Origin: Spirochaetales bacterium
Lineage (GTDB): Bacteria > Spirochaetota > Spirochaetia > JABEVK01
NCBI GenBank assembly: GCA_947478845.1
Contig: CANJXC010000014.1
Span: forward strand, 1-64,000
Direction: 5' to 3'
Length of the DNA stretch: 64,000 bases
Shown here: positions 40,463 through 58,573 of the stretch, in pieces
How the letters are laid out: every line of letters starts with the position of its first letter
How positions within the stretch are numbered: position 1 is the stretch's first letter
Program-made: the position numbers and the translations under genes
The notes under the pieces: generated by a model
Seen by the model: only the letters and a program-made list of their open reading frames with translations
What the model was told of the DNA's origin: nothing
Databases searched by the model: none

Positions 40463-41629
40463 TTACCAACGGGACGCAGCGGCGCTCCCCCAAAACGGAG
40501 CCTGAGGAATCTGCTGAAGGCTGTAGTGGCGCTGGTGGCTACCTTGGAGCAAACCCTTCAGGTGGGTTTCGAAACGTCCTTTTAGGCCGGGGAGCTTCCA
40601 GAACGTGCTCCCTTCGGCAATGATTCCTACAGGTCGATCGCTTTGGTGTCCACCTCCAGTTCGCCAGAGCACCGCGGCTGTCGCTGCAGCCAACAGGGCA
40701 GCACCCCGGTCTACCACCGCTTCGACAACGATACGAACCCGATCACCCTCGGCTCGCCCTAGCGGATCAGCCAAATCGGCTGTAGTCCATTTTTCCGTTT
40801 GGCCGAGCGCCTGTTCCACCGCCAGCGAGCACAGTGGCCCTAGATACGCCCCCGAAATCGTTTTTTCCAGCCAATACGCGTCCGGGTCTTGGGTCAGGTT
40901 GGCGAAGGCTTGGTCGAGAGAGCCCCGGGGAAAAAGGCGGAAGGCACCCCACTCGGTGTTGTACACTTCACCCTGCCGGCTAGGTTCGGGGTAACAACCG
41001 TTGGTCCCGGTGCCAAGGATAAGCCCGATACCTGAAGACCAGTGGTCACTCTCGACAACGGCCTCTGCGGCCAAAAGGGTGGCAACTGTGTCGTTCAATA
41101 CCACGAGCGCACCGGGCCGTGGGGAGGACTTTCGAGCCAGCGCCAGCTTGAGCTCGTGCCCCACCAATTGGCCCACCACCTCGGGGGCTTGAATCTCCTT
41201 GCTAAACTGAACCAATCTCCCGTCCTTGTCCGATTGAATGTCGGTGGGGAAGGAAAAACAAAAGCCGATGGGAAGTGCTTCTTCCATCACCTCGCCGAGG
41301 GCCGCCGCCATAGCGTCGAAGAAGGCTTGCTTGCTCACCAAGCCCTGCGTCCCGGGCATGGGCACCTCAACCTGCTTCTCCACCTCTCGGGACCCAGATT
41401 CCCAACGTACCCTGGCGGCGCGAAACCGCGTACCGCCCGCATCGAGCACAATGACTCGGCCCACCGCTCGACCCGATCGACCCGGTTTCCAAGGCAAGCA
41501 ACTAGGGTTCATGGCCAGTGAGGAGCTTTTCCCAGCGAGTCCGCGCTCTAGTTCGTCTGCGAAGGCCTCGGCCACTTCGCGCACAGCAGCAGGCGACAAG
41601 ACAAGCCCGGCGTCGTGAAGGTACTTCAA
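40463..41629 (-). CDS. Eukaryotic-type hexokinase
   Basis: 388 residues of the hexokinase_1/2 fold, not the ROK or Glk type: phosphate loop VLDAGGTRFRAARV, catalytic Asp in VVLNDTVATLLAAEA and the adenosine/phosphate loop IGLILGTGTNGCY. Treponemes have such a single-domain hexokinase. It phosphorylates glucose, fructose or mannose at O6 with ATP. The TTG start overlaps the deoC stop (TTGA) after GGGAG, so the two are coupled. It lies at the end of the fructan-type glycosidase region and would phosphorylate the hexoses that these enzymes release. Confidence 0.88.
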   Translation of the reverse strand: MKYLHDAGLVLSPAAVREVAEAFADELERGLAGKSSSLAMNPSCLPWKPGRSGRAVGRVIVLDAGGTRFRAARVRWESGSREVEKQVEVPMPGTQGLVSKQAFFDAMAAALGEVMEEALPIGFCFSFPTDIQSDKDGRLVQFSKEIQAPEVVGQLVGHELKLALARKSSPRPGALVVLNDTVATLLAAEAVVESDHWSSGIGLILGTGTNGCYPEPSRQGEVYNTEWGAFRLFPRGSLDQAFANLTQDPDAYWLEKTISGAYLGPLCSLAVEQALGQTEKWTTADLADPLGRAEGDRVRIVVEAVVDRGAALLAAATAAVLWRTGGGHQSDRPVGIIAEGSTFWKLPGLKGRFETHLKGLLQGSHQRHYSLQQIPQAPFWGSAAASRW

Positions 41630-42387
41630 TATCCGCTCCCAAGCCGGGGCTCCGCCGACACCAAGGTGTTGAGCTCTACACCCTCGGCCAGTAATTTCTT
41701 CGCTTCGTCGAGCATCACCGCCGTTGCCGTGGCCCCCACCCGAGTAACACCCAACGAGCGCACCGTGACGAGGTCTTTAAGGGTTCGCACCCCTCCGGCG
41801 GCTTTCACCTGCACCAACTGCGGGGCCACCTTTCGCATCAATTTGAGGTGCTCGATGGTGGCCCCCTTGTAGTTGTACTGGCCGTCGGGCTGTTTAACGA
41901 ACCCGTAGCCGGTGGAGGTCTTCACAAACGCAACCCCGACGTTGCTGCAGATTTCTGTCAACCGGGTGATGGCCTCGAGCCCTAGAAAATCGTTTTCAAA
42001 GATCACCTTCACCAGAGCACCCCGGGCAAGGCTGACCAGTTGCACCGCCTCAATTTCGCGTTGCACAGCCTTCCATTCGCCACCGAGCACCTGACCGATG
42101 TTCACCACCATATCGATTTCGGTGGCACCGAGGGCACAGGCTTCGAGGGTTTCGGCAACCTTGATGCCTGTGGTTGCACTTCCATGAGGGAACCCTATGA
42201 CGGTTCCCACCGCCACTCCCGAACCAGCAAGCAAGCGAAGAGCCAAGGGCACGGCGTAAGGCTTGATGCACACCGAGGCCACTTGGTAGCTCGCCGCCAG
42301 ACGGCACCCGTCGGTGAGGTCCTTTTCTGTCATCGTTGGATGCAGAAGAGAATGATCAATCATCTTCGCTAAATCGGAAACGGTCAT
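41626..42387 (-). CDS. deoC: Deoxyribose-phosphate aldolase
   Basis: 253 residues from the ATG at 42387 (GAGGTG upstream). The Schiff-base lysine is Lys156 in FVKTSTGYG, the proton-relay Lys195 is in VQVKAAGGVR, and Asp92 in EIDMVVNIG completes the site. It cleaves 2-deoxyribose 5-phosphate to glyceraldehyde 3-phosphate and acetaldehyde. No other nucleoside catabolic gene is adjacent; instead it is coupled to hexokinase, which is unusual. Upstream are 160 bases without a gene, after the GH32 stop. Confidence 0.93.
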   Translation of the reverse strand: MTVSDLAKMIDHSLLHPTMTEKDLTDGCRLAASYQVASVCIKPYAVPLALRLLAGSGVAVGTVIGFPHGSATTGIKVAETLEACALGATEIDMVVNIGQVLGGEWKAVQREIEAVQLVSLARGALVKVIFENDFLGLEAITRLTEICSNVGVAFVKTSTGYGFVKQPDGQYNYKGATIEHLKLMRKVAPQLVQVKAAGGVRTLKDLVTVRSLGVTRVGATATAVMLDEAKKLLAEGVELNTLVSAEPRLGSGY

Positions 42388-42547
42388 AAAACACCTCAAT
42401 CGTTCAGTTGGATGCCTGTGGGCATAGCTACGGTAATTCCAGCGAGGCTCACCGTCAAGGTGTTTTGGGGCTCCTTGCGGGTTCCGATGAAGGGCGCAAC
42501 AGAGGCATTTAGCGCATTAGGCAAGGAAAGGCGAAGTTATTGTCAAA

Positions 42548-44101
42548 TCACCAGGCGTTTGTCGGAGCGAGCTTCCACACGCTCATTTCGTGAAACGTCG
42601 ACTCCCCACCTTCTGAGAAGAGGGCAACCAGGTCGCTTTCTGAGAAGCTGGGATAGACCCGCTGCGACAAGCACTTAGAATTGTTGACGAAGACTTCGAT
42701 AACGGAAGCATCGAGAAAGATCCGTAGATCGATTCGTTTGCCCTCCCGAAGGCTCATCCTTAGCCTTTGAACATAACATTCTCCGGTTTGCCTCGTCGGT
42801 TCTTCGGGAACTGGTAGCCAGGCGTTATCCTGAATCTCTTTGACGATCGAGGCTCGGCGGGCCTCGATAGCCTCCCTCGGACAATTCAGACCATCGACGA
42901 GTTTCACGGGGGCAAACAAGTCCTTGCGCAGGCTTGCGCGGGAAGTGTCTACTACGACTTCTTGGGTTTCAAAGTCATAGTAAACCAACGTTTCTTCTTT
43001 TCCCGATTCGTGGAGACACAGAACCACACCGGCCTTTGTAAGGTCGTTCGAAGAAACCGACAAAACCACCTCGAGTTGTCTGCCACGTAGCGAAAGCCTT
43101 TCTCGCCCCTTGAGGTTGGTGGTTCCCACCACAAGAACTTGCGCCCTCAGTTGCTTGAGTTCCTCGACCGGACTTACATCGACTAGCCCGTCGATACCTA
43201 GCTTCAGTACTCTTGGCAGGCTCAAGACTCCCGAGAACTCTTCCTCTTCCAACGATTCGAGCTGCCTTGCTTCGGTGATCCATCCCCATAGAATGCGTCG
43301 GTCTCCCGGGCCTAGGAGGGATTCGTTGGCGAAAAACTGACCCCCATATTGGTTCATACGCTCATGTTTTTCGGGAGTGAATACTCCGTCTTCATAACGA
43401 CCCACGTAGTACTGAACACCCCGGGTGTGGGAGATAAACATGAAGATGTGTTTGTCGCCTAACGCAAAGAAATCGGGGCAGGAGTAGTCCTCGTACCCCT
43501 GGTTGAGCCTTTGGCCCCGCTCCACAAAAGGGCCCTGATAGGTCCAAGTTGTGAGGTCCTTTGAGACGAACATCGCGGGCTCAGGGCCACCAAAAATTGC
43601 CCTATAGAGGCCTTTTTCCTGCCAGGCGTGGGGGTCCCAAGAAGTAAAGAGGTGATACTCCTTGTCGCTTGGGAGAGGTATTTTCACGATAGGATTAGCG
43701 GGCATCTTCGTCCAAGTGTTCAAAGATGCGTCATCCGCGATCGCAACACAATTCCCGGCATTGACTCCGTGATACATGAGAAGCGGTGTGCCGTCTTCCA
43801 TCAAAGTGAATGCACTTCCACTGAAGATGCCTTCTTCTGGACTCTGATCATCCGGCGACAACGCCGTTGGGTGCTGAATCCAGTGCAACAGATCGTGACT
43901 CGAGATGTGACCCCACTTATGAATGCCCTCGTCTTGAAAAATGTAAAACAGATGGTAACGACCCTTGTAGTAGATCGCCCCATTGGGGTCGAAGGGAATC
44001 GAACTGCCCTCCGGCGATACGACATGGTACTTGGGTCGATACTGATTGGCCAGAAGCTTTGCGCGCAGACGGCGTACCGCGCCGATGTCTTTTCCCTGCA
44101 T
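42548..44101 (-). CDS. Intracellular beta-fructofuranosidase, glycoside hydrolase family 32
   Basis: 517 residues, no signal peptide. The five-blade propeller motifs are present: nucleophile Asp38 in FDPNGAIYYKGRYHLFY, FSGSAF (93-98), and the transition-state stabiliser Asp156 in WDPHAW. The acid/base motif, usually ECPD, reads YEDYSCPDFF (203-212): the residue before Cys is Ser207, while Glu204 is three positions earlier. A C-terminal beta-sandwich follows (about 340-517), ending in the FVNNSKCLSQRVYP segment. It hydrolyses fructosyl bonds in sucrose, inulo- or levano-oligosaccharides. It follows the GH172 gene by 12 bases. Confidence 0.9.
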   Translation of the reverse strand: MQGKDIGAVRRLRAKLLANQYRPKYHVVSPEGSSIPFDPNGAIYYKGRYHLFYIFQDEGIHKWGHISSHDLLHWIQHPTALSPDDQSPEEGIFSGSAFTLMEDGTPLLMYHGVNAGNCVAIADDASLNTWTKMPANPIVKIPLPSDKEYHLFTSWDPHAWQEKGLYRAIFGGPEPAMFVSKDLTTWTYQGPFVERGQRLNQGYEDYSCPDFFALGDKHIFMFISHTRGVQYYVGRYEDGVFTPEKHERMNQYGGQFFANESLLGPGDRRILWGWITEARQLESLEEEEFSGVLSLPRVLKLGIDGLVDVSPVEELKQLRAQVLVVGTTNLKGRERLSLRGRQLEVVLSVSSNDLTKAGVVLCLHESGKEETLVYYDFETQEVVVDTSRASLRKDLFAPVKLVDGLNCPREAIEARRASIVKEIQDNAWLPVPEEPTRQTGECYVQRLRMSLREGKRIDLRIFLDASVIEVFVNNSKCLSQRVYPSFSESDLVALFSEGGESTFHEMSVWKLAPTNAW

Positions 44102-44113
44102 AGAAGCCAGCGC

Positions 44114-45199
44114 CTAACGAGGCCAACGGGCAGAGGCAGAGGGAAAAACCGGAAACGGAGCGTGGGGTTCAGCTTGGTACCAATATGCGACGGAACTAAT
44201 GTCGTCCTGCCGCTCGTAGAGTCCGCGCTTGGAAAGGCCGATCTGCTGCACAGTGGCTCGCAGGTCTTTCTCAAAGCAAATGGGGTCGTTGAGGTGCCAC
44301 CTGTAAAAGCCGTGTTCAGGTATAGGCTTATCGTCGAAGGCGTTGCCCTGGTTTTGTCTAGGATTGCTGCTTCGTGGGTGCCCGAGAAACGGGGAATTGT
44401 ACTCCTGCTCGGGCTCGCCGTCGATTTCAACAAACCCCCAAGCTCCGCCGAAATAGTCTTCGGTACCGGTACCACAGATGGTAGGGAACTCGAGGTCGCC
44501 ATCAAGGTAGAACTTCACCTCGCCTTCACCATACCAGTTGCGCTCCAGAATCGACCAAGCCATGTAGGTGCCCACGTAATGGCCGGTGCCCTTCAGTTCG
44601 GCAATCGTGTAATCCTTTTTCGGTACAGTGACCGATTCACGTCTCCACTGCGCGTGAAAGCGTAAAGAATCCTCCGGCAGACTCGGCAAAAGTGCATAGT
44701 CAATCTGGAAGAAGAAATGCTGGATTTCCACCGCATGCTGGTTCTCTATCGTGATCTTCGCCCTCTTGGAAAAAGGCATAGGGAAGTAGCAGTTCATGCC
44801 ACCGTGTGGAAGCACGACAATTGGAAGCGAATTGATACGCGTCTTCACCCCAAACCCGTTACAGAAGAAGTCACCTAGAGGTGCTTCCACACTAGGGTTC
44901 TGTTCTCCGTCCCAGTACATACGGATCACCAGGTCGCGCAAGACGAAGAAGTCTTTTTCCGTCATGTCGGTAACGGTTATCCAGAGGTGTCGGATCTCGC
45001 CCGGCCCTTCGTTGATGTCGGCCAAGGTAACCGTTTTTCCTTGAGGCAGTTCAAGCCAGGCGTGTCCTTTTCGCCCCGGACCGAGACCACTTGAGGCCCG
45101 TCCGCCAGCACCTTTGGCCCCAGTGAGGTTCTCGGCGGTAATAGCCCGCGTTTTTTCTTTCTTTAAGGTAGTCAGGTACGCTGAGTTGAGGGGGTTCAC
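44114..45199 (-). CDS. GH172 family (DUF2961) alpha-fructofuranosidase/difructose dianhydride-type enzyme
   Basis: 361 residues that match DUF2961, now glycoside hydrolase family 172. Typical segments: GHAWLELPQGKTVTLADI at the start, GEIRHLWITV, WYGEGEVKFYLDGD (Glu225, Glu227), ICGTGTEDYFGGAW (Glu247) and FYRWHLNDPICFE. Two glutamates spaced about 20 residues apart fit the catalytic pair of the family. Characterised members include the Bifidobacterium alpha-D-fructofuranosidase/difructose dianhydride I synthase and D-arabinofuranosidases; they assemble as trimers of double jelly rolls. No signal peptide. The GTG start follows AAGGAG. Operon with GH32 and the CUT1 transporter makes a fructose-containing substrate the likeliest. 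Confidence 0.85.
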   Translation of the reverse strand: MNPLNSAYLTTLKKEKTRAITAENLTGAKGAGGRASSGLGPGRKGHAWLELPQGKTVTLADINEGPGEIRHLWITVTDMTEKDFFVLRDLVIRMYWDGEQNPSVEAPLGDFFCNGFGVKTRINSLPIVVLPHGGMNCYFPMPFSKRAKITIENQHAVEIQHFFFQIDYALLPSLPEDSLRFHAQWRRESVTVPKKDYTIAELKGTGHYVGTYMAWSILERNWYGEGEVKFYLDGDLEFPTICGTGTEDYFGGAWGFVEIDGEPEQEYNSPFLGHPRSSNPRQNQGNAFDDKPIPEHGFYRWHLNDPICFEKDLRATVQQIGLSKRGLYERQDDISSVAYWYQAEPHAPFPVFPSASARWPR

Positions 45200-45220
45200 A
45201 GTTTGCTCCTTGAGGCAATT

Positions 45221-46066
45221 CTACTCTTTAAGACTTCCTGTCATCAAATTGACCAACTGTTTCTGCAAGAACAAAAACAGCACTACTATTGGCACCGTCA
45301 TGATAACAGATACCGCCATAATCATCGCCCAATCGACAAAATACATCCCTTTGTAGGTCTGCAAAAGCAACGGAAGGGTGAGGTTTCTTCCGGAGGAAAC
45401 AAGAACCGAAGAAAACAAAAAATCACCCCAGCCTACGATGAAGGAGAACAGCAGCAGCGCACTTAGCGCCGGCATCGCAAGCGGCATAACAATCCTATGA
45501 AAAACTCCTATCGGAGAACAGCCATCGATTTTGGCCGCCTCCTCCAACGAGGGAGTTTGTTCCTTAAAGAAGCCGATAAACAGCCAGGCATTCACCGGAA
45601 CACAAATAATGATGTACGAAAACATAACCGTAAAAAGGTTATCGAGCATTTTTAGTCCAGCCATAATGCTGTAGTAGGGAATCAGAAGGACAATCCAAGG
45701 CATCACCTGCGAAAAAAAGATGAAGAAGAAGAAAAGTTTCTTGCCGGCGAAGTTGTAGCGGATAAAACCATAACCACCTAAAGCAGCTACATAGGTTGAG
45801 AAAATAGCACTCAAGGTGTTGATCCAAAGTGAGTTGAAGAAGGAGCCGATAAAATTTGCTTCACCAACACTACGCTTAAAAACGTTGAAGAAGGCAGAAA
45901 GTGTCCAGTTGTTGGGGAAGAAGCGGGCATCGACTGTAATGATTTCGCTATTGTCGCGAAGCGCGTAGGATAAGAGCATCACTAATGGGACTAAGAGCAC
46001 CAAGGCTGCTACCAAAAGAAGAACGTAGAGAGCTGACTTCTTTACAATGTCAAACAGTTTCATCAT
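45221..46066 (-). CDS. CUT1 family ABC transporter permease (MalG-like)
   Basis: 281 residues, six membrane segments; EAA loop TPSLEEAAKIDGCSPIGVFH. Four bases after the gene start two methionines stand together (MMKLFD); either can be used. It is six bases downstream of the MalF-like gene. No ATPase gene is in the locus. Confidence 0.92.
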   Translation of the reverse strand: MMKLFDIVKKSALYVLLLVAALVLLVPLVMLLSYALRDNSEIITVDARFFPNNWTLSAFFNVFKRSVGEANFIGSFFNSLWINTLSAIFSTYVAALGGYGFIRYNFAGKKLFFFFIFFSQVMPWIVLLIPYYSIMAGLKMLDNLFTVMFSYIIICVPVNAWLFIGFFKEQTPSLEEAAKIDGCSPIGVFHRIVMPLAMPALSALLLFSFIVGWGDFLFSSVLVSSGRNLTLPLLLQTYKGMYFVDWAMIMAVSVIMTVPIVVLFLFLQKQLVNLMTGSLKE

Positions 46067-46072
46067 ATCTGC

Positions 46073-46951
46073 TCACCTCTTCCTGAACTCGTATCGGTAG
46101 TAAATGAAGGCTAGAATCAGGCTCAGGAGCATGAGCAGGATGCCCTCGGCACTCGCAATGCCTAATTTGAAGAAACGAAAGGATTGATCATAAATATCCA
46201 GACCAACGAGGTTTGTGGCCAAGGCTGGCCCGCCGCCGGTAACGAGGTAGACAAGATCAAACTCCTTGATCGTGCCCACCAGCTGCAGAATCAACATGAT
46301 GAACCACACCGAAAACGTCATCGGCCAGGTGATGCGGAAGAACTTTTGCAGTGGCTTCGCACCATCGACGTCAGCTGCCTCATACAGTTCTTTCGGGATG
46401 TTTTGCAGGGCGGCAAGAAGCATCAAGGCCACAAAAGGAAAGTTTTTCCAGACCCCAATGAGGATCACCACCGGCAGTGCGATGTCGGCTCGAGAGATGA
46501 ACGGGACTCCTTCGGGAACCAACTTGAGGGCAAGAAGTAATGCGTTCATGACCCCATATTCCGAGTCGAGGAACAAGGTGAACAGGAAGGCCACCACGAT
46601 TCCGGGCATGGCCCAAGGAATAACCAGCAGGGATCGAAGGATGCCTTTTCCCCGAAACTTCGCGTTTAGTAACAGCGCCACAATCAAACCTAGGAGCATT
46701 TTTCCGAAAACACTCCAGAGGGTGTACCAACCGGTAATCGCAGCCATCTTCCAGAAGCGGGCCTTCTCCCAAACGGTCTGGTAATTGTCTAGTCCTACAA
46801 AGGCGTGTTCCCGGCTTCCAGAAAGCATGTCGTAGTCAGAGAAACTCATGATTACCGCCTGAACAAGCGGAATCGCCACAAACAGCACCAGAGTCAAAAG
46901 GGGCAGTATGAACAGTGTTGCTTCGATACCACGCCGGGTTGTTTTCTTCAT
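46073..46951 (-). CDS. CUT1 family ABC transporter permease (MalF-like)
   Basis: 292 residues, six membrane segments with a sizeable loop after the third; EAA loop IPKELYEAADVDGAKPLQKF. It sits 16 bases after the binding protein gene and six before the MalG-like gene, giving a standard CUT1 trio minus the ATPase. Confidence 0.93.
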   Translation of the reverse strand: MKKTTRRGIEATLFILPLLTLVLFVAIPLVQAVIMSFSDYDMLSGSREHAFVGLDNYQTVWEKARFWKMAAITGWYTLWSVFGKMLLGLIVALLLNAKFRGKGILRSLLVIPWAMPGIVVAFLFTLFLDSEYGVMNALLLALKLVPEGVPFISRADIALPVVILIGVWKNFPFVALMLLAALQNIPKELYEAADVDGAKPLQKFFRITWPMTFSVWFIMLILQLVGTIKEFDLVYLVTGGGPALATNLVGLDIYDQSFRFFKLGIASAEGILLMLLSLILAFIYYRYEFRKR

Positions 46952-46967
46952 ACTGCCACCCCCTGAC

Positions 46968-48299
46968 TTATTTCTTCTTGGCCTGCAAGATCTTCACCAT
47001 TTCGGCTTGACCCTCGTCCAAAGCCTCTTTTGGTGTCTGTGCTCCTACCAAAATTGAGTTGAATGTCTGCCGAATGACGCCTTCAAACTCGTTCCACTGT
47101 GGAATATCGGGCACAATGCGCATTTCGTACTTGGTCGCCATAGCCACGAACTCACCCTGCTTCGGCTTCACCGAGTTGTAGAACGGGAGCGCCTTCTTGT
47201 TGACCGGAGACGCGGCGACGCCCTCACGCTTTTGCACTTCGATGGAATGCATATAGGCAATAAAGTCAAACGCCTCTTTGGGATGCTTTGACTTAGAAGA
47301 AATTGCCAAGGGATTACCCCAGGACTCATAGATCGGGGCGCGTTTTTGTCCATCGAGGTCGTAGGTAGGGAAGGGAGCAAAAGCGAGGTCGCTGGTAAAG
47401 GCCCCTGCCGGCATCATGTCGGTTTCGATGCTCGACATCGTCCAAATGGCAGCCTGCATAAAGGCTACGTCGCCCGTGAGGAACAAAGGCCGAATATCGT
47501 CATAGTACCTGCGGTCGCCTGTTGGACCGGCAGCCTTATTGATGCTGAGCAAATACTCAAAGGCTTTGATATTCTCTTTGGAGTTAAAAATTAGCCGATC
47601 GGGAGTATAGGGCCCTTTTTCCAATGGGAAGATTCCGCCGCCAGCGGTCCAGAGGTAAGGCATCGTAAACCAACGGGTCAACACATCTTTAGCCGTCGTT
47701 GGGTGTGCAAAGCCAAAAGTGGTCCGTTTTCCCGAAGCGTCGGCTTTGGTCAAGGCCTTGGCAACTTCTAGCTGTCCCGACCAGGTCTCCAATTTCTTGG
47801 GGTCAATTCCGGCCGCTTTCAACACTGACTTACGATACACTGTGTTTTGGGCGTAGAAGTTGATGAAAGGAAGGGCAATGGTCTGACCACTGCGCTGCGT
47901 GGCATTAAGGAACAGGATATCTTTTTCGAGGCTAGTGCCGTCTTTCAGCACGTAGCCCTTGATGTATTTGTCGAGGGCGAGAAAGGCCCCTCCTGGACGG
48001 GTCTGATCATACGAAGAGATACCTGCACCCGTATCCACGGCTACAATGTCGGCCTCCGAATCATTGGCAATGTCCAAATACAACTTATCCCAATACTTGG
48101 TACCGTCGAGGATTAAGGCTTCAACCTGAACCTTGGGGTACAATTTCTGAAACTCGACAATAGCCGTCTGCATGTTGGCGGCTCTAACGGGGTCGTTCAT
48201 CCACCAACAGGCTACTGTCAGCTTAGTTTGAGCAAACCCGAATCCGGCAACAAGAAACAGTGACAACAGTGAAAATGCATACTTTGCGACTGTGCGCAT
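46968..48299 (-). CDS. CUT1 family extracellular oligosaccharide-binding protein
   Basis: 443 residues from the ATG at 48299, preceded by AAGGAG; the longer frame to 48335 begins with a charged stretch. Signal peptide with cleavage after GFA (about residue 24), no lipobox. The mature part is a family 1 solute-binding protein with many aromatic residues, as usual for oligosaccharide binders. It lies between the GH31 gene (98-base gap) and the permeases. The ligand is inferred from the glycosidases: a fructose-containing oligosaccharide. Confidence 0.9.
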   Translation of the reverse strand: MRTVAKYAFSLLSLFLVAGFGFAQTKLTVACWWMNDPVRAANMQTAIVEFQKLYPKVQVEALILDGTKYWDKLYLDIANDSEADIVAVDTGAGISSYDQTRPGGAFLALDKYIKGYVLKDGTSLEKDILFLNATQRSGQTIALPFINFYAQNTVYRKSVLKAAGIDPKKLETWSGQLEVAKALTKADASGKRTTFGFAHPTTAKDVLTRWFTMPYLWTAGGGIFPLEKGPYTPDRLIFNSKENIKAFEYLLSINKAAGPTGDRRYYDDIRPLFLTGDVAFMQAAIWTMSSIETDMMPAGAFTSDLAFAPFPTYDLDGQKRAPIYESWGNPLAISSKSKHPKEAFDFIAYMHSIEVQKREGVAASPVNKKALPFYNSVKPKQGEFVAMATKYEMRIVPDIPQWNEFEGVIRQTFNSILVGAQTPKEALDEGQAEMVKILQAKKK

Positions 48300-48397
48300 A
48301 TTGAACTCCTTTTTATATATCTTGAAAAAACACATAGTGAATTAAGTTCTCGATATTAGCCTCCTTAACTAACTGACTTTAATCCTTCGGTTTCCTT

Positions 48398-50365
48398 TCA
48401 CTTTTTGAACAAGCTTAAGAGTTTAGAGTTTGATTCCTTTACAAAGACGGGAATATAGTCGAGTGGCGCTTGCACCTCGATGGATTGCCCCCCTTGCGTG
48501 GTTTCGTTTGTCCAGGCGTTTGTCCACGTGTTGCCGCGCGGCAGATAGACGGTACGGCTTCTGAGGTTAAACTTAGTAATGGGCGCAATTAAGAGCGCGG
48601 GTCCGAAAAGGAACTCGTCTTCTATCGCATAGGTTTCAGGGTCTTCGGAGAAGTCAAAGAATAGCGGCCGCATGGGAGGTAGACCCTTTTTTCTGGCCAA
48701 TTCCATTTGATCCATTACATAGGGTCGCAACCGTTCCCGCAGCATCATGGAGTTGCGAATATGACGGTAGGCTTCGTCGCCGAAACGCCACGCCTCGTTG
48801 TAGGGCCTGTAACCGTGGGTACGGAAGATGGGCAGGAAGACTCCATACTGGTACCAACGGACCATAAGCTCATGAAAGTGGTCACTCGTGCTGTCGTTGG
48901 TGATGAATCCACCAATGTCGCAACTCCACCAGGGGATGCCGCTCATCATCACGTTGAGCCCGACTTTCATGTATTGTTCGAGGTGTTCAAAAGAGGACAG
49001 AATGTCGTGGGGTGCTGGGCAAGCTCCGTAGCGCTGACTTCCAGCCCAGGCATTCCTGGAAATGTTGACGACTTCGGTTTCTCCGGCTGCTACCTGCCCC
49101 TGATAGACATTTTTTTGGTGCGCAACCACGAAGAAAGAATGGCTTTCGACGGCCGGACCAATGTGAAAAACAACTTGGTCATAGTCTTGGATGTCGTGAA
49201 ACTCATCACATGGATCGAGCCAGAACGTGCGGATCCCTAAGTCGAAGTAATTTTTCTTCCATTTTTCCCAGAGAAACTTCGCGGCTTCGGGGTTGGTGGG
49301 GTCGTACTGGTATTTAGGGCCGAAGAAATCAACCTTGTCTTTCGTACCATCCAGCGAGGTAGTAAAAAGGTTATGCTCCTTCATGTATTGGAAGTTCTCG
49401 CTGCTCTCGTCAACAAGGGTCCACGGAGATACCATGACCCTGACGCCCATTTCCGCAAGTTCCTGAATCATGGCCTTGGGATCTGGCCAAAGCGTGGGGT
49501 CCAGTTTCCAATTGCCGGCAGCATCCCAGTGGAGAAAATCGATCACGAGGACCGAAAGTGGTAAGGCCTGCTTCTTGAACTCGCGCGCGATTTCCATAAA
49601 CTCGCGTTGGTTCTCGTAGCGCAATTTGCACTGCCAAAAGCCAGAAGCCCAATAGGGGAATACAGGTGTATGCCCTGTCGCGTCGGCATAGTTTTCCATA
49701 ATCTCCGCGTACGAATCGCCGGTTGTGATGTAAAAGTCGATTTGCTTGCAACCATAGGAAACCCAACGGGTCATGTTGTTGCCGAACTCCACCCTTCCCA
49801 GCGAAGGGTTGTTCCAAAGGAACCCATAGCCTTCGCTTGAAACCACAAAGGGAACAACAGCCTTCACATGCCGCTGGTAAAGATCGATGACGCTCCCTTT
49901 GAGATCCACCCGACCGGTTGCGTTCTCCCCCATGCCGTAGAATCGTTCACCTTCTCGGGACGCCAGATGAAGTTCAGTGTGGTAAAGCCCATTGGCGACG
50001 GGCTTGAACGTGTGGGCTCCGGGGTTATGGGCCCAGACTCCATAGTCCTGCTCAGCAAGGAGGACAGAGGTGTTTTCATGGTCGTGCTTAAAGAACTGGA
50101 GGCTACCCTTCTGTGTGTAGGTATCCTGAATCACCACCGAGATGTCGCCATTCCTCAAAACCGCCTGACGGGAGTCGAAATGAATGGTGGCCTGAGCTTC
50201 CAAAGGAATATCGAGAGCCCAATCCGAGGTCTGCCGGCTCTCTTTCGGGGCTATCCTGATTCGGATTCCGTTGCGACCCCAAGGATCCGCTGTAATCCTG
50301 GCTGTATCGAGATCGTAATACAGTTGGTTATTCATGCTAAAAGCTCTGGTACTGACTTCGTTCAT
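48398..50365 (-). CDS. Glycoside hydrolase family 31 alpha-glycosidase with variant acid/base motif
   Basis: 655 residues from the ATG at 50365, which follows a G-rich ribosome site; the frame is open to a TTG at 50404 that overlaps the lacI stop. No signal peptide. The nucleophile Asp384 lies in RTFWLDPCDEFH. The acid/base region, usually ending WSGD, reads AGSQRYGACPAPHD, with Asp454 in the expected place but Trp-Ser-Gly replaced by Ala-Pro-His. The distal substrate motif GIPWWSCDIGGF is intact. GH31 enzymes cleave alpha-glucosides, -xylosides or -galactosides from the non-reducing end. It is first after lacI in the operon with GH172 and GH32, so it may trim an alpha-glucosyl end from the imported sugar. 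Confidence 0.88.
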   Translation of the reverse strand: MNEVSTRAFSMNNQLYYDLDTARITADPWGRNGIRIRIAPKESRQTSDWALDIPLEAQATIHFDSRQAVLRNGDISVVIQDTYTQKGSLQFFKHDHENTSVLLAEQDYGVWAHNPGAHTFKPVANGLYHTELHLASREGERFYGMGENATGRVDLKGSVIDLYQRHVKAVVPFVVSSEGYGFLWNNPSLGRVEFGNNMTRWVSYGCKQIDFYITTGDSYAEIMENYADATGHTPVFPYWASGFWQCKLRYENQREFMEIAREFKKQALPLSVLVIDFLHWDAAGNWKLDPTLWPDPKAMIQELAEMGVRVMVSPWTLVDESSENFQYMKEHNLFTTSLDGTKDKVDFFGPKYQYDPTNPEAAKFLWEKWKKNYFDLGIRTFWLDPCDEFHDIQDYDQVVFHIGPAVESHSFFVVAHQKNVYQGQVAAGETEVVNISRNAWAGSQRYGACPAPHDILSSFEHLEQYMKVGLNVMMSGIPWWSCDIGGFITNDSTSDHFHELMVRWYQYGVFLPIFRTHGYRPYNEAWRFGDEAYRHIRNSMMLRERLRPYVMDQMELARKKGLPPMRPLFFDFSEDPETYAIEDEFLFGPALLIAPITKFNLRSRTVYLPRGNTWTNAWTNETTQGGQSIEVQAPLDYIPVFVKESNSKLLSLFKK

Positions 50366-50400
50366 TTCAAAGGACCCCCCACTTGCCGTTTTCAAACTGT

Positions 50401-51405
50401 TCAAGTGCCATCTGAATCACCTGAAATCAACTGGAAGGGAGCCTCAATGGATCGAACTTCCTTGGGAGCCATGCCTTGGATTCGACTCAAAAGCAACTCA
50501 ATGGCGATTTTGCCGACCACCCTGGGGTTGTAGCTGATGGTTGTCAGACGGGGCCGTACGTCATGCATCTCTTCTGTTTCATCGAAGCTAACGACGGCGA
50601 TATCTTCGGGAACTCGCCACCCTAAATCGACCGCCGTGCTCATGGCACCAAAAGTCATCAGGGCATTGCCGATGAAAACGGCCGTAGGCCTAGTCTTGAG
50701 GCCCCAAAAATAGCGCATCCCCTCTCGTCCGGAGGGGCGAAGAAAGCTACCGTGAAAGGTCAGTTCTGCCGGTTGGTCGAGTTTGTGGTCACGCAGCGCT
50801 TTTTTGTAGCCACGAAGTCGCTCGCTACCGGAGTGATACCTCTGGTCGCCCGACAAGTGGGCGATTCGCGTGTGTCCTTTGTCGATCAGGCGTTTTGTAG
50901 CCTGATATGCGGCTTGAAAGTCGTCCAAAAACACATTGTCGAGAATTGGCTTGCTGAGGTAGCCGATGTAAGCACCGGTTACACCCAGGTGCTCAAGAAG
51001 CGTTTCCCCGCCGTCACACATTTCACCCGAAATAATGACGCCGTCAAAACGCTTCGGGCTCATCAGCTTGATGAAACTCTGAACTCGGTCGGGCGTGCTT
51101 GTTTGCAGTACATCGGTGTTATAGAAAAGGAGCTCATAACCCTCAGCCGACGCAATTTCCTGAATTGTCTGCACAAGCTCTGAGAAAAAGGAGTTCGTGA
51201 TGTCGGGCACAATGAGAGCCAGCAGGTTTTTCTTCCCCGTCCGTAGGTTCTGAGCAAAAGGACTTGGCTGATATCCCAATTCCTTGATGGCGCTTTCTAC
51301 CCGCTCCCTGAGAACCTTTGTCACCCGCTCCGGATGATTGATCACATGCGAAACCGTGGTCTTTGACACCCCGGCCAAGAGAGCAACGTCACTGATTGAC
51401 TTCAC
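50401..51405 (-). CDS. LacI family transcriptional repressor
   Basis: 334 residues from the GTG at 51405 (GAGGA eight bases upstream; a TTG at 51408 is the alternative). The helix-turn-helix ISDVALLAGVSKTTVSHVINH is followed by the hinge helix and a periplasmic-binding-type sensor domain (about 60-330) that binds a sugar. It is the first gene of the GH31-transporter-GH172-GH32 operon, 35 bases from the GH31 ATG. Its operator is almost surely the 12-bp repeat array directly before its own start. Confidence 0.93.
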   Translation of the reverse strand: MKSISDVALLAGVSKTTVSHVINHPERVTKVLRERVESAIKELGYQPSPFAQNLRTGKKNLLALIVPDITNSFFSELVQTIQEIASAEGYELLFYNTDVLQTSTPDRVQSFIKLMSPKRFDGVIISGEMCDGGETLLEHLGVTGAYIGYLSKPILDNVFLDDFQAAYQATKRLIDKGHTRIAHLSGDQRYHSGSERLRGYKKALRDHKLDQPAELTFHGSFLRPSGREGMRYFWGLKTRPTAVFIGNALMTFGAMSTAVDLGWRVPEDIAVVSFDETEEMHDVRPRLTTISYNPRVVGKIAIELLLSRIQGMAPKEVRSIEAPFQLISGDSDGT

Positions 51406-51416
51406 CAATTTTCCTC

Positions 51417-51452
51417 GTGAATCGATTTGTGAATCGTTTTGTGAATCGATTC
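51417..51452. promoter_or_regulatory. LacI operator array: three tandem 12-bp repeats
   Basis: Three direct 12-base units stand head to tail: GTGAATCGATTT (51417-51428), GTGAATCGTTTT (51429-51440) and GTGAATCGATTC (51441-51452). The third makes the perfect palindrome TGAATCGATTCA (51442-51453) with the central CG of LacI-family operators. The array lies immediately before the ribosome site of lacI. A -35 TTGACA (51487-51482, minus strand) with a weak CACATT 17 bases on would start transcription right at the array, so bound repressor would block its own operon. The divergent gene at 51568 may share control. Confidence 0.75.
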
Positions 51453-51567
51453 AAAACCAATGTGAGACCAGTGATGGAATCTGTCAAGCTGATTTTTCTG
51501 TGGCGCGTGTTTGAAGCAAGTTGGGAAACCGATGACCGAACCCCGCCGGCCGTGTTAACCTGAATCC

Positions 51568-52383
51568 ATGTTTGACCTTCAAAATGACACCCTAACCGTC
51601 ACCCTTCTCGACCCAGTCGCCGACCGCGAGCGATTCGGTACGCGCTATTGCACTGCCGGCTACGTTTTTCAGATTTCCGACGTCCATCACGGAGAACTGC
51701 TCAGTGGGCCTACCTTTCCCCACAGCTTCAACACCTTCGATGGGCAGGGAATTCCCGACGCCTTCAACCTTTCCCCGCTTCGCGACCCCCAAAAACCTGG
51801 TCCTTTGGCGTTGATTTTGGGAATTGGGCTGTGCGACCTCGAAGAGAACGCGGTCAAGGAGTTCAGTGCCTGGGAGCAGAAGCTCTCGCCGGCCGAAGGA
51901 GAGTTCCGCACGGTGCACGAAACCTTAGGCTACCGCGTAGAAGTGGTCCGCAAGGTGTCTTTGCTCGGCCGCACGGTACGCTCTTGGACCTCGGTGCACA
52001 ACCTTGGCAAGGAAACCGTGGCGCTGCGTTGGTTCCCCCATCCGTTTTACCCCCAACCCACGGGGACGGAACTGTGCGCGTTCAACCTCGCCGTTTCGTT
52101 TCCAGTCAACTCCGGCTATCGGATGGCCGACAACGGGTTTATTCACCGCATCGATAAGCCAGTAACACCGGGGCCGTTTCAGTCGCTAAACCACGATGCG
52201 CATGCGCCTCTGGCCGTGTGGCAACGCCACGACAAACTAGGCTTGGTAGGTGCTCGGAGCGACTACGTACCAGCGGCCTTCCCGATTTGGGGCAACGCCC
52301 ACACATTTTCTTGGGAACCCTACCTGGAACGGGGCCTTTTTGCTGGCGACAAGACCGCATGGACCATGGAGTATTTGTTTTAG
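51568..52383 (+). CDS. Galactose-mutarotase-like protein
   Basis: 271 residues, rich in beta strands, with the look of the aldose 1-epimerase/galactose mutarotase superfamily: SWTSVHNLGKETVALRWFPHPFY and a C-terminal SWEPYLERGLFAG. I do not see the exact catalytic His-Glu pair of GalM, so a related carbohydrate-binding or epimerase function is as far as I can go. It is divergent from lacI across the operator array and converges with the deoR-type gene at 52403. No signal peptide. Confidence 0.6.
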   Translation: MFDLQNDTLTVTLLDPVADRERFGTRYCTAGYVFQISDVHHGELLSGPTFPHSFNTFDGQGIPDAFNLSPLRDPQKPGPLALILGIGLCDLEENAVKEFSAWEQKLSPAEGEFRTVHETLGYRVEVVRKVSLLGRTVRSWTSVHNLGKETVALRWFPHPFYPQPTGTELCAFNLAVSFPVNSGYRMADNGFIHRIDKPVTPGPFQSLNHDAHAPLAVWQRHDKLGLVGARSDYVPAAFPIWGNAHTFSWEPYLERGLFAGDKTAWTMEYLF

Positions 52384-52402: not shown

Positions 52403-53188
52403 CTAGCAGGCTGAACTCGCTGGAATCGGCACCTGGGAAACCTTGACCAGTTTTTCCAGTTGTTCCAATTCCTGAAGGTCAACCTCGGAATCCGTGAGGA
52501 CCAAATCCACCTCCTTCCACGGGCAGAATTGGATTATGGCTTCTTTGTCGAACTTGCTGCTGTCGCAAACCACGATGGCCCGCTTGCTGCTTCTGAGCAT
52601 GGCCTGTTTCACCGCCGCCTCTTCTACAGAGGAGGTGCAAGGTCCGTTACGGGAGAGGAACCCGTCGGTGCCGAGAAACGCTACATCGGCTTTGATCATC
52701 TCAAACGCCCGAGTAGACCAAAGGCCAACGAGGGCGAGGCTGCTGCCGCGAACCTCACCGCCCACAAGGAGAATTTTGTTCTGCGAAGAGGCGAGCACCT
52801 GAGAAATGCTCACCGAGTTGGTGATGATGGTGTAGCCTGAGCGTACCGCAAGGAGCTTGGCAATGGCCAGCGTGGTGCTTCCGGCGTCGAGAATGATTAC
52901 GCTCCCCTCTGCGACCAGCGACACAGCGGCCTGGGCGAGGAGGCCTTTTGCGGTAACGTTTTCGGATTCGCGGGCTGCCAAAGAGCGTTCCACCAAATCG
53001 CTGGAGGCAATGGCCCCGCCATGGCTTTTGTGAACCAAACCCTCGCGCTCTAAATGCAAAAGATCCTTACGGATGGTTTCGGTGGAAACGTGAAACATCT
53101 GGGCAACCTCGGCCACCTTCGCGCTGCCTTCGGTCACGATCATCTGCATAAGTTTATTGCGGCGAAGCGCCGTGAACGAAGGAGCCAT
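52403..53188 (-). CDS. DeoR family transcriptional regulator
   Basis: 261 residues from the ATG at 53188 (AAAGG seven bases upstream; another ATG directly precedes it). The winged helix-turn-helix VAEVAQMFHVSTETIRKDLLHLE is followed by a DeoR sensor domain with ILDAGSTTLAIAKLL and FLGTDGF. It is the last gene of the pfkB-HPS-PHI-dehydrogenase-mtlD operon, 49 bases after mtlD, and is the natural regulator of the two 15-bp operators at 57,624-57,712. Confidence 0.92.
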   Translation of the reverse strand: MAPSFTALRRNKLMQMIVTEGSAKVAEVAQMFHVSTETIRKDLLHLEREGLVHKSHGGAIASSDLVERSLAARESENVTAKGLLAQAAVSLVAEGSVIILDAGSTTLAIAKLLAVRSGYTIITNSVSISQVLASSQNKILLVGGEVRGSSLALVGLWSTRAFEMIKADVAFLGTDGFLSRNGPCTSSVEEAAVKQAMLRSSKRAIVVCDSSKFDKEAIIQFCPWKEVDLVLTDSEVDLQELEQLEKLVKVSQVPIPASSAC

Positions 53189-53237
53189 CATTCCACCTTT
53201 CCTACAAACCACATCGCTCGAACTAAAAGCGAAGGTC

Positions 53238-54371
53238 TCAAACTGCTGCTTTGATCATCCTAAACAGTTGATCCTGTCTGTGCAGCCCCAGCACAATTTC
53301 AAGCACGGCGTCGAGTCCTTGGTCTTGGAGCATCTGCCTCAGTTGCACCGCTTGCGGTTCCTCGGGAGAGTTGTAGTCGAGCGCAGCACGGATTCCTACC
53401 AGAATAGCATCGGGACTGATTCCGTGCTTGAGGGCCGTGAGGGCAGGAGCGACGAAGCGCTCGTCGTGGCCGAGCTTACGCAGGGGCTCGCGGCAGATGC
53501 GAGTGCAAGGGTCGTGCATTCGGCTGTCTGAGAAGCGACGGAGCATGACGGTGATGTATTGGTAAAACTCCACTTCCGGTAGGCCGTATTCGCGGCTCCA
53601 GCCCTGCCCGCACTCGGCCAGCGCCCTGAACACCACAGAGAAAATCGCATCGTCGAAGGCTGCTTGAAAGATGTACTGATAGCCTTTTTGATAGCCAAGG
53701 TACCCTAGCATCGCGTGCCCGGTCAGAGAGAACATTTTCCTCTTGATGTAGGCCTCGGGCTTGTCGGTGAGCTCGAGCCCTTGAATCGGCAGCAGGGTGC
53801 CCTTCACAGCCGCCTTGTCGATGACCCATTCCACGTACTGTTCAACCTTGACCGTCAGGGGATTGCTGTCGTGGATGGGCATCACCATGCGCGACACTTC
53901 GGCGTCGGGGAAGCCGACGAACTCCGCGCAGTGGGCGAGCTCCGCTTGGCTCAGCTGAGCAAATACGGCCCTCTTCAGCAGGCTCGAGCCCTTATCGATG
54001 TTTTCGCAGGCAATCACGTTGAGCGGTCGTGTGACGCCCAACTCCATCCTCCGCCGAATCGCCTTAACTATCGTGGGAGCCGTTTTGGTGAGGATGCTTG
54101 GTCCAACCGCCGTGGTTACCAACTCTGCTTCTGCCAAAGCCTCGGGCAATTTGTCGTCGGTGGGCAAAAAGGCCCGGATGCCGGTAATTTCCACTCGGTG
54201 CTCTTCGGCACCCATGACGATCACCGGGTAGGCGCCGAGATGATTGATGCTATCGACGAGGGATGGGGAAACCTCGACAAAGGTGATTTGGTAGCCGGCG
54301 CTGAAGAGAACCTGCCCTATGAACCCGCGGCCGATCTGCCCGGCGCCAATCATGATCGCTTTTTGTGGCAT
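53238..54371 (-). CDS. Mannitol-1-phosphate 5-dehydrogenase family protein
   Basis: 377 residues, MtlD length. Cofactor motif AIMIGAGQIGRGFIGQVL at the start and the family substrate region HDSNPLTVKVEQYVEW. In the catalytic helix, where MtlD reads K-x4-N-x2-H (as in KLFTLNTGH), this protein has KMFSLTGH: one residue, the conserved Asn, is missing. The catalytic Lys and His remain. GGGGAA precedes the ATG. MtlD oxidises mannitol 1-phosphate to fructose 6-phosphate; the change suggests a different hexitol phosphate or polyol. It is 11 bases after the Zn-dehydrogenase gene. Confidence 0.8.
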   Translation of the reverse strand: MPQKAIMIGAGQIGRGFIGQVLFSAGYQITFVEVSPSLVDSINHLGAYPVIVMGAEEHRVEITGIRAFLPTDDKLPEALAEAELVTTAVGPSILTKTAPTIVKAIRRRMELGVTRPLNVIACENIDKGSSLLKRAVFAQLSQAELAHCAEFVGFPDAEVSRMVMPIHDSNPLTVKVEQYVEWVIDKAAVKGTLLPIQGLELTDKPEAYIKRKMFSLTGHAMLGYLGYQKGYQYIFQAAFDDAIFSVVFRALAECGQGWSREYGLPEVEFYQYITVMLRRFSDSRMHDPCTRICREPLRKLGHDERFVAPALTALKHGISPDAILVGIRAALDYNSPEEPQAVQLRQMLQDQGLDAVLEIVLGLHRQDQLFRMIKAAV

Positions 54372-54382
54372 AGATTCCCCGC

Positions 54383-55432
54383 TCAGGCCTTCAGGCTGTT
54401 CGAAATGTAGACTTTCAGAGCCTTACCGCTCTTGGCCAACTGAAGGCCTTGCTCAAACTGCTGCAGAGGCAACCGATGGGTAACCATCTGATCTGTGCGC
54501 ATCGCCCGCGTGGCCAGCAAATCGAGGGCTTTTTGAAGCTGGCGAGCGGTGGACGAGGAGGCGCCATAAACGGAAACCTCCTTGTAGTGAATGATGCGGC
54601 TATCAAGGGTGATGCCCGAAGCACCCACAGGTAGGCTGGAGAACAAACTGAGCCGGCCACGGGTGGCGAGGGTTTCCAAAGTTTGTTCCATAGCTTCTTT
54701 AACCGGCGCCGTGACGATGGCGACGTTGACGCCCTTTCCGCCGGTGAGGCGCTTTACTTCAGCCACGAGGTCGTTTTTGCTGGTGTCAATGTAGTCGGAA
54801 TATTCAAACCTCCGGGCCATTGCCATTCGGGTTTCCGATCGCTGGGCCAGAAGAATTCGCCCGGCGCCACTCATACGAGCCAGTTCGGCCTGAAGGATGC
54901 CGATGGGGCCGGCACCGACGATGAGAACCGATTCACCAGGGACGATTTTCAACAACTCCTGGCCGTTGATGCAACAGGCCAGGGGTTCGGCCAGGCAGGC
55001 CACTTCGTCCGACAAGGAGTCGGGCACTTTGACCAGATTGCCCAAGGCCATAGCCTTGGCCGGGATGGCCACGAACTCGGCAAAGGTGCCGGGGTAACCC
55101 CAACTGATGGCCTCGATGGTCTGGCAGAGGTTGAACAAACCTTGCTGGCAAAGCTCGCATTTGCCACAAGGCAGTGAAGTCTGCACCGTGACCCGGTCGC
55201 CTACCTTCAGGTCGCTGGTACTATCCTTGAGTTCCACGATCCGACCACAGGACTCGTGACCAATGATTTGTGGTGGTGTGATGCGGGGGTGACCACCTTT
55301 ATAGATTTTGACGTCGGTACCGCAGATGAGGCTTCCGTCGAGTTGGACAAGGGCACCACCGGGGGGACAACCCGGCCTTTCAGTTTCGAGGATGCGGATA
55401 TCTCCGGGGCCATAAAACCAGGCTGCTTTCAT
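54383..55432 (-). CDS. Zinc-dependent polyol/alcohol dehydrogenase (MDR family)
   Basis: 349 residues. Catalytic zinc site CGTDVKIYKGGH and GHESCGRI, the structural-zinc loop CGKCELCQQGLFNLC (four cysteines) and the Rossmann motif VGAGPIGILQAEL. It belongs with sorbitol/threonine dehydrogenases and would oxidise a secondary hydroxyl of a polyol with NAD(P). It follows the PHI gene by four bases, within the operon. A formaldehyde-oxidising role, given HPS next door, is less likely since the protein is not of the glutathione-dependent type. Confidence 0.88.
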   Translation of the reverse strand: MKAAWFYGPGDIRILETERPGCPPGGALVQLDGSLICGTDVKIYKGGHPRITPPQIIGHESCGRIVELKDSTSDLKVGDRVTVQTSLPCGKCELCQQGLFNLCQTIEAISWGYPGTFAEFVAIPAKAMALGNLVKVPDSLSDEVACLAEPLACCINGQELLKIVPGESVLIVGAGPIGILQAELARMSGAGRILLAQRSETRMAMARRFEYSDYIDTSKNDLVAEVKRLTGGKGVNVAIVTAPVKEAMEQTLETLATRGRLSLFSSLPVGASGITLDSRIIHYKEVSVYGASSSTARQLQKALDLLATRAMRTDQMVTHRLPLQQFEQGLQLAKSGKALKVYISNSLKA

Positions 55433-55436
55433 GTGA

Positions 55437-55997
55437 TTACTCCAGGTTAGCGTGTCGAGTGAACATGGTTTTGGAATCGTTTCCTTGAGCTTCCATCAGG
55501 CGGATAATGACGGCGTCTAAGAACAGCAAAAGACTTTGTTCGAACAGCGAGCCCATGGGTTGAATGGAGCTGAAGGCACTGGCAAGGCTGTTCTTGGGGG
55601 TCGGTGCTGAGATTTTGACCACGATATCGGCCATACCACCTATCGAGGATTCTCGGACGGCAGTCACCAAAGCGAGCTCAGCTTCCAGCTTTTTGGCCTT
55701 GTTGGCCATCGAGACCAAGCTGCTGGTCTCTCCGGAACCCGAGCCGATGACGAGCAGATCGCCCTTAGCCAAATTAGGGGCAATCGTTTCGCCAACAACA
55801 TAGGCCTCGAACCCCATGTGCATCAGACGCATGGCAAACGCCCGGACCATGAAGCCGGATCGGCCGGCCCCGGCTACCATAATTTTTTTTGCCCGCAGGA
55901 TGCTTGCAACCAGTTGGTCGCACTCCGCCTCGGAGATGGCACCGAGGGTTGTTGCCAATTCCTTGGCTATCGCCTGGCCTATTTCGTTGAAGTTCAT
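55437..55997 (-). CDS. hxlB: 6-Phospho-3-hexuloisomerase (SIS domain)
   Basis: 186 residues, exact family size. SIS domain with KIMVAGAGRSGFMVRAFAMRL and the phosphosugar loop VIGSGSGETSSLV. It isomerises D-arabino-3-hexulose 6-phosphate and fructose 6-phosphate. Its ATG overlaps the HPS stop (ATGA, 55994-55997), so the two enzymes are made in step, as in ribulose monophosphate pathways. The direction in this organism depends on the neighbours discussed under the operon. Confidence 0.92.
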   Translation of the reverse strand: MNFNEIGQAIAKELATTLGAISEAECDQLVASILRAKKIMVAGAGRSGFMVRAFAMRLMHMGFEAYVVGETIAPNLAKGDLLVIGSGSGETSSLVSMANKAKKLEAELALVTAVRESSIGGMADIVVKISAPTPKNSLASAFSSIQPMGSLFEQSLLLFLDAVIIRLMEAQGNDSKTMFTRHANLE

Positions 55998-56638
55998 TTT
56001 CTGCCTCCGGCATTCACTAAAACAGCTTTCAAGTCCTGGGCCGCTTTTCGGTGATCGAAAGCCCCCGAAATGGCTCCCCCGACGATGACAATATCGGGAC
56101 GAGCCTCGACAAGGGCACCGATGGTGGATAATTTGATGCCCCCAGCTACCGCAATTTTTGAGCTTTTGACCACCTTTTTGACCCGCAGCAGCTCATCGAG
56201 GGGGCTCTTTCCGGTGCCCTGAAGATCAAAGGCGGTGTGGACGCAGATGTAGTTAACACCAAGCTTGTCGACTTGTTCGGCACGGCGCTCGAGGTCGGCG
56301 ACGCCGATCATATCGACGAGAATTTCTTGACCGGCCTGTTTTGCCGCCGTGACAGCAGAAAGGATAGTCGCGTCATCGGCAACGCCGAGAACACTCACAA
56401 TGTTGGCTCCGGCCTCGAGCGCGGTTCGGGTTTCGTGCTCGCCAGCGTCCATAATCTTGAGGTCGGCCATGATTTTCAGCTGGGGGTAGGCGGCGCGCAC
56501 TTCCCGCACGGCCCTCACCCCGTCCTGCACGATAAAGGGCGTGCCGATCTCCACAAGATCAATGACATCGGCAACCTCCTTGAGGATCTTCTTCGCCCCT
56601 TCCATGGTAATAAAATCTAAGGCCATCAGCAGTTGCAT
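55994..56638 (-). CDS. hxlA: 3-Hexulose-6-phosphate synthase
   Basis: 214 residues from the ATG at 56638 (AGGAGG six bases upstream). An OMP-decarboxylase-superfamily barrel with the DxKxxD site ADLKIMDAGEHET (Asp59, Lys61, Asp64), VSVLGVADDATI and VHTAFDLQ, which fit HPS better than 3-keto-L-gulonate-6-phosphate decarboxylase. It condenses formaldehyde with ribulose 5-phosphate, or in reverse releases both from 3-hexulose 6-phosphate. In organisms without an oxidative pentose phosphate branch the reverse reaction supplies pentose. Confidence 0.9.
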   Translation of the reverse strand: MQLLMALDFITMEGAKKILKEVADVIDLVEIGTPFIVQDGVRAVREVRAAYPQLKIMADLKIMDAGEHETRTALEAGANIVSVLGVADDATILSAVTAAKQAGQEILVDMIGVADLERRAEQVDKLGVNYICVHTAFDLQGTGKSPLDELLRVKKVVKSSKIAVAGGIKLSTIGALVEARPDIVIVGGAISGAFDHRKAAQDLKAVLVNAGGRK

Positions 56639-56666
56639 CACTTCCTCCTAGCATCTTCGGGCAACC

Positions 56667-57608: not shown

Positions 57609-57623
57609 GGCACACCTCTTAAA

Positions 57624-57638
57624 ACCAAGATATCGCAA
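57624..57638. promoter_or_regulatory. Proximal operator of the pfkB-HPS-PHI operon
   Basis: ACCAAGATATCGCAA, on the minus strand TTGCGATATCTTGGT, overlaps the expected transcription start of the pfkB promoter. It is an inverted copy, with one mismatch, of the site at 57698-57712. Such paired sites about seven helical turns apart suit repression by DNA looping, probably by the DeoR protein at 52403. Confidence 0.65.
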
Positions 57639-58321: not shown

Positions 58322-58563
58322 CGGCTGTCTCGATCTTCCCGAACGAGGAACTCTGGAGTCGGGAGGATCTGGGCCTCGACTCCAAATCCCTCAAACGTGG
58401 AGATCAGGTGTTTTCTTCTATTCTTGTTCTCGAGTCTCTTCTCGATTCCCTCTTTCAGGAGGACAATTGTCTGTTGAGCCAAACTGCGATGTTCTTTCTC
58501 GGCAAGGAAGTTTAATTGGTTATAGACCTCAGACGGAAGATCCCTCACTTGTAAAGTAGGCAT
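58318..58563 (-). CDS. FitA/VapB-type ribbon-helix-helix antitoxin
   Basis: 81 residues from the ATG at 58563 (GAGGTG upstream); the longer frame to 58668 covers the promoter. The N-terminal ribbon-helix-helix reads MPTLQVRDLPSEVYNQL, the usual FitA-like antitoxin start, and the charged C-terminal tail (EFLVREDRDSR) would enter the toxin site. It neutralises the VapC encoded next and represses the operon. Confidence 0.85.
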   Translation of the reverse strand: MPTLQVRDLPSEVYNQLNFLAEKEHRSLAQQTIVLLKEGIEKRLENKNRRKHLISTFEGFGVEAQILPTPEFLVREDRDSR

Positions 58564-58573
58564 GTTCACCTCA

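Follow-up and report, generated by a model that had tools for sequence, protein, structure and literature searches.

Closest described systems

Family GH172 has few characterized members, with two known specificities. In Bifidobacterium dentium, a GH172, a GH32 and an ABC importer are found together, for which Kashima et al. made the same import-and-cleave proposal as is considered here, and GH172 also occurs with GH32 in S. davawensis (PMC8605356). The B. dentium enzyme, alphaFFase1, a difructose dianhydride I synthase/hydrolase, also cleaves alpha-D-Araf (PMC8605356); it depends on E85 and K147 for activity on inulobiose and can do without them for pNP-alpha-D-Araf. The choice between fructose and arabinose is reported to lie with one residue, Asn253 in the exo-alpha-D-arabinofuranosidase ExoMA1 (8ic8) and Gly299 in alphaFFase1, of which the glycine makes room for the 1-hydroxymethyl group of fructose and the asparagine blocks it (PMC10509167).

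We analyzed a stretch of 64,000 nucleotides, hereafter the window, from a Spirochaetales bacterium. Judging from sequence, its operon resembles the described Bifidobacterium system, with the key enzyme taken from a different branch without known characterized member. Like the B. dentium locus BBDE_2039-2043, it combines cytosolic GH172 and GH32 with a neighboring ABC importer and has Gly at the -1 specificity position. It differs in that its GH172 belongs to another clade and has no K147 loop, in its atypical GH32, and in the addition of a GH31 and a hexokinase. The claim in the initial annotation that no such set had been described thus holds in part only, as GH172, GH32 and ABC importer were described together in 2021 (PMC8605356), while we know of no description of the combination of GH172, GH32 and GH31 from a full-text literature search with most subscription journals outside its coverage.

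Operon structure and gene content

The operon is, as first annotated, a LacI-led minus-strand run followed by deoC and hexokinase genes. All genes are present and intact according to open reading frames and Pfam matches, and are listed below in the order of transcription, together with the codon of the specificity residue.

50401..51408, minus strand: LacI-family regulator, at the head of the operon (PF00356/PF13377)
48398..50404, minus strand: GH31 alpha-glycosidase, MeXyl31-like, with altered motifs (PF01055; best PDB match 5zn6, 568 bits)
46968..48335, minus strand: CUT1 solute-binding protein (SBP_bac_1, PF01547), with signal peptide by eye
46073..46951, minus strand: ABC permease, MalF/UgpA type (PF00528)
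45221..46066, minus strand: ABC permease, MalG/UgpE type (PF00528)
44114..45199, minus strand: predicted GH172 (DUF2961) furanosidase (PF11175, 315 bits against a cut-off of 27; aligned to ExoMA1 and alphaFFase1)
44435..44437, minus strand: Gly255 codon of the GH172 gene (equivalent to ExoMA1 Asn253 and alphaFFase1 Gly299)
42548..44101, minus strand: GH32-family protein (PF00251/PF08244; fold match to beta-fructofuranosidases)
41626..42399, minus strand: deoC, deoxyribose-phosphate aldolase (TIGR00126, 193.9 bits)
40463..41629, minus strand: hexokinase, eukaryote-type (PF00349)

From LacI to GH32 the intergenic gaps are -4, 62, 16, 6, 21 and 12 bp, i.e. one tight unit, while 148 bp separate GH32 from deoC, which overlaps the hexokinase gene by 4 bp. 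Nothing resembling a terminator was detected in these 148 bp, and the promoter and terminator scans gave background level only. By eye, a signal-peptide-like stretch was seen at the N-terminus of the binding protein and none at those of GH31, GH172 and GH32. This agrees with the earlier observation that no glycosidase carries a signal peptide, and supports the logic of import followed by cytoplasmic cleavage.

Immediately upstream of lacI, between it and a divergent gene, lies the following feature.

51416..51457, no strand assigned: candidate LacI operator (three 12-bp direct repeats, 51416-51451, of TGTGAATCGATT type; palindromic TTGTGAATCGATTCAAAA)

The last of the three repeats is a CG-centered palindrome, and the repeat type has four matches with one mismatch allowed, compared to 0.66 expected. 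The three direct repeats probably serve as operator; in front of deoC, no copy was found. The divergent gene sharing this region (51568-52383, plus strand, 271 aa) appears mutarotase-like by eye; it had no Pfam match and no homolog among the fetched loci. Beyond it, the next operon (52403-57638) encodes a DeoR regulator, mannitol-1-phosphate-dehydrogenase-like and alcohol-dehydrogenase-like proteins, a PfkB kinase, and a SIS-domain/HUMPS-family pair that is similar to PHI and HPS in the ribulose monophosphate pathway. This is followed at 57923-59045 by toxin-antitoxin genes, i.e. a PIN domain with an RHH antitoxin and a PemK/MazF-like toxin.

The GH172 protein

The predicted structure of the GH172 protein (pLDDT 79.9, from an alignment of 42 sequences) has the double jelly-roll fold. 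In the comparison with the B. dentium enzyme that had been proposed earlier, the best solved match is instead ExoMA1, both by sequence (282 bits vs 161 bits for alphaFFase1) and by predicted fold (TM 0.82 to 8ic8 vs 0.71 to 7v1v). In the alignment the catalytic residues are kept, E225 (acid/base), E247 (nucleophile) and D248 corresponding to E270, E291 and D292 of alphaFFase1. The specificity position holds Gly255, the fructose-tolerant residue, and to this extent the proposed action on fructosides is supported. The equivalence was established by counting along printed alignments, in which BACUNI_00161 shows Cys, in agreement with the clashing Cys304 (PMC8605356).

The +1-subsite residue K147 and its loop are missing from the window GH172 in the alignment, although they are kept in four Paenibacillus-family controls of the alphaFFase1 clade (L246, L255, L258 and L259); this makes difructose dianhydride I (DFA I) an unlikely substrate. 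The PDB alignment to alphaFFase1 leaves out residues 62-97 of that enzyme, i.e. the Glu85 region. In a quick tree, alphaFFase1 groups with L258 (SH-aLRT 97), distant from the window GH172. The Asn/Asp group including ExoMA1 forms one clade (SH-aLRT 93) and the window GH172 falls in a sister Ser/Cys/Gly clade (94), neither of them starred. The tree thereby places the enzyme in a third, large clade, outside both the alphaFFase1 and the Asn-type clades, and we know of no assayed enzyme for this clade. The clustering with D-arabinofuranosidases that had been named as evidence against fructosides is consequently seen by half: among solved relatives ExoMA1 stands closest, but the window enzyme sits in the sister clade and carries a different key residue.

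GH172 residue classes and their genomic neighbors

GH172 neighborhoods were surveyed in 80 loci from a genome scan and another 80 from a sample drawn from the family to which Paenibacillus macerans belongs; in one such Paenibacillus-family sample, DUF2961 genes were found in 101 out of 247 genomes. Among the 189 GH172 proteins, GH32-clan genes occurred within 8.5 kb of 20 out of 37 with Gly at the position of Gly255, four out of six with Ala and eight out of 61 with Ser, and of none with Cys (0/41), Asn (0/42) or Asp (0/2). Since the sample includes duplicate genomes and close relatives, the raw figure for this link, p 2e-12, does not serve as a p-value here. After dereplication at 85%, a GH32 neighbor was present for 15 of the 56 proteins in the G/A/S classes and for none of 46 in C/N/D (p 9e-5), while setting G/A against S/C/N/D gave p 0.005 at 85% and p 0.15, not significant, at 70% dereplication. 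Tree-based independent contrasts for the link between G/A and GH32 numbered four on supported branches (median p 0.5), with none in the opposite direction. As these are too few for significance, the association is suggestive, not proven. With this reservation, the neighbor counts favor an association of Gly-type GH172 genes with GH32, and the residue at position 255 appears to track with GH32 neighbors in this sample. Within the clade of the window enzyme, canonical GH32 adjoins GH172 in L060, L110, L119 and L122.

A GH32-like subgroup in which WVGD takes the place of WMNDPNG (L057:5059-6552, with relatives in L056, L062, L069, L079 and L085) was repeatedly found near Gly-type GH172 in Paenibacillus. 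Many of the Paenibacillus GH32-clan neighbors belong to this subgroup, whose Pfam GH32 scores are weak and whose members may not be fructosidases.

GH116 genes were found beside Asn-type GH172 only in the surveyed loci. The second GH172 of the same genome (G000, contig C18, L044:9553-16041) is of this type and adjoins two GH116-like genes, one of them confirmed by Pfam, in what looks like a separate D-arabinan-type locus. This locus further includes a xylanase-like gene along with two ABC importers.

Altered motifs in GH32 and GH31

The window GH32 has kept the nucleophile D38 (DPNG) and the stabilizer D156, while Ser207 occupies the acid/base position, i.e. the Glu of the EC motif. SWDP is found for RDP and YSCPD for ECPD, partly in common with the distant relative L043 (35%), the closest one found. 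Asp205, three residues before the Cys, is also present in L043 and may replace the acid/base Glu. No relatives of the window GH32 were detected in a viral-contig scan, and the subgroup therefore rests on two sequences, the window and L043. The structure model, of moderate confidence (pLDDT 65.7), matches beta-fructofuranosidases best. As the usual acid/base Glu is missing, however, the protein may not be a beta-fructosidase. A plain beta-fructosidase, the role first ascribed to it, is doubtful. A canonical GH32 is found elsewhere in the same genome.

For GH31, the best match is the alpha-xylosidase MeXyl31 (5zn6), over nearly the full length, and the catalytic Asp pair, D397 and D467, is kept when aligned to it. 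At the positions of WLDEAEPE and WSGDI in MeXyl31 and three relatives, the window protein has WLDPCDEF and APHDI, so that WLDEAE and WSGD of MeXyl31 are replaced by WLDPCD and APHD. Given these motifs and an alpha-xylosidase as nearest match, a plain alpha-glucosidase that would remove an alpha-glucosyl group, as originally envisaged, is doubtful too. With the motifs of both enzymes altered in one operon, a shared unusual substrate is suggested.

Conservation in other genomes

The nearest relative of the module was identified in Spirochaetaceae bacterium UBA1318 (L050), where the binding protein is 71% identical and is accompanied by two permeases and a GH172 (73%); neither GH32 nor GH31 lies within 10 kb. 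The same core of importer and GH172 is found in L037-L041, with both permeases recognized in all but L038, and GH32 and GH31 were not found nearby. The core thus consists of importer and GH172, to which GH31 and GH32 look like additions. In L037 (8900-11112), two tandem GH172 genes, one of Gly type and apparently truncated, the other of Ser type, are part of one importer module, followed by LacI-like and phosphofructokinase-family genes.

The search for the same neighborhood elsewhere, as had been recommended, yielded one recurrence of the set of GH172, GH32, GH31 and ABC importer in the material surveyed, namely in Blautia schinkii DSM 10518 (L110). As in the window, GH31, a regulator, the solute-binding protein, two permeases, a Gly-type GH172 and GH32 all have one direction. 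Unlike in the window, where GH31 is MeXyl31-like, the Blautia GH31 is of the ordinary alpha-glucosidase type (3n04, 859 bits), GH32 has canonical motifs, the regulator is DeoR-like, and an extra ADP-ribosylglycohydrolase-family gene is present.

The hexokinase is the sole PF00349 match in its genome. Like GH32 and the binding protein, it was without counterpart, at the thresholds used, in six further genomes from the order, and the locus is therefore accessory. The earlier inclusion of the hexokinase in the pathway gains from this, as it is found with the locus only; another hexokinase gene adjoins a GH172 in L045. DeoC, on the other hand, had matches in five of the six relatives, which are without the operon genes tested. 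It may thus belong to general metabolism, was given little weight as a pathway gene, and is probably not specific to the pathway.

Possible function of the operon

With about even confidence, we take the operon to serve the import and cytosolic degradation of an alpha-fructofuranoside other than DFA I. In the pathway that we infer, with respect to an alpha-fructofuranoside as substrate, to which bond is cleaved first and to what GH31, GH32 and hexokinase each do, the CUT1 ABC transporter of the LacI-controlled operon would import an oligosaccharide. From this, the cytoplasmic GH172 would release a terminal alpha-D-fructofuranosyl (ketofuranosyl) group belonging to neither a DFA I nor an inulobiose unit. 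The alpha-pyranosyl and fructosyl-type bonds that remain would be removed or split by the divergent GH31 and GH32, and the hexoses released would be phosphorylated by hexokinase. This is supported by the GH172 catalytic residues with Gly255, the separate Asn-type GH172, the GH32 neighbors, the Blautia gene set and the sole hexokinase. Against it speak ExoMA1 as nearest solved enzyme, the few contrasts, the absence of GH32 and GH31 from L050 and L037-L041, and the GH32 without its Glu. A bolder version, clearly less probable than the former, is that an undescribed glycan with alpha-ketofuranosyl ends is degraded by three enzymes, each of which would have an activity new in its family: GH172 with a third specificity, GH32 dispensing with the EC Glu (perhaps by way of Asp205) and GH31 with its -1 site rebuilt.

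Somewhat less probable still, GH172 could be an exo-alpha-D-arabinofuranosidase; the operon would then, as in Microbacterium, import D-arabinofuranosyl-containing oligosaccharides that derive from glycans of actinobacteria or pilins. ExoMA1, the best PDB match by both measures, has the same catalytic residues, its model is likewise one of ABC import and cytosolic GH172, and alphaFFase1 too acts on alpha-D-Araf. The window enzyme, however, carries Gly255 rather than Asn253 and sits in the sister clade; no GH116 or GH183 was recognized in the operon, while the GH116-like genes of this genome adjoin its other, Asn-type GH172. GH32, GH31 and hexokinase are also at odds with a release of D-arabinose, and neither D-arabinose isomerase nor ribulokinase was recognized in the operon.

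We regard it as equally unlikely that all three glycosidases have as their substrate some unusual glycan, neither a fructan nor an arabinan, with the GH31 and GH32 motifs changed to fit. Those changes, partly common to one distant relative for GH32, and the separate canonical GH32 of the genome favor this, but motif changes by themselves name no substrate, the catalytic Asp of GH31 and the nucleophile and stabilizer Asp of GH32 are kept, and the GH172 catalytic residues are ordinary. Least probable is the initial assignment, in which GH172 opens DFA I, GH32 cuts the resulting inulobiose and hexokinase phosphorylates the fructose: its logic and gene set (GH172, GH32, ABC importer, no signal peptides) match BBDE_2039-2043, and both Gly255 and the S. 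davawensis pairing fit, yet against it speak a GH172 outside the alphaFFase1 clade and without the K147 loop, and a GH32 without the canonical Glu.

For the family as a whole, the residue class at position 255 (G/A/S vs N/C/D) makes substrate prediction in GH172 directly testable, and with their altered catalytic motifs the GH31 and GH32 of the window offer themselves as probes for new activities.
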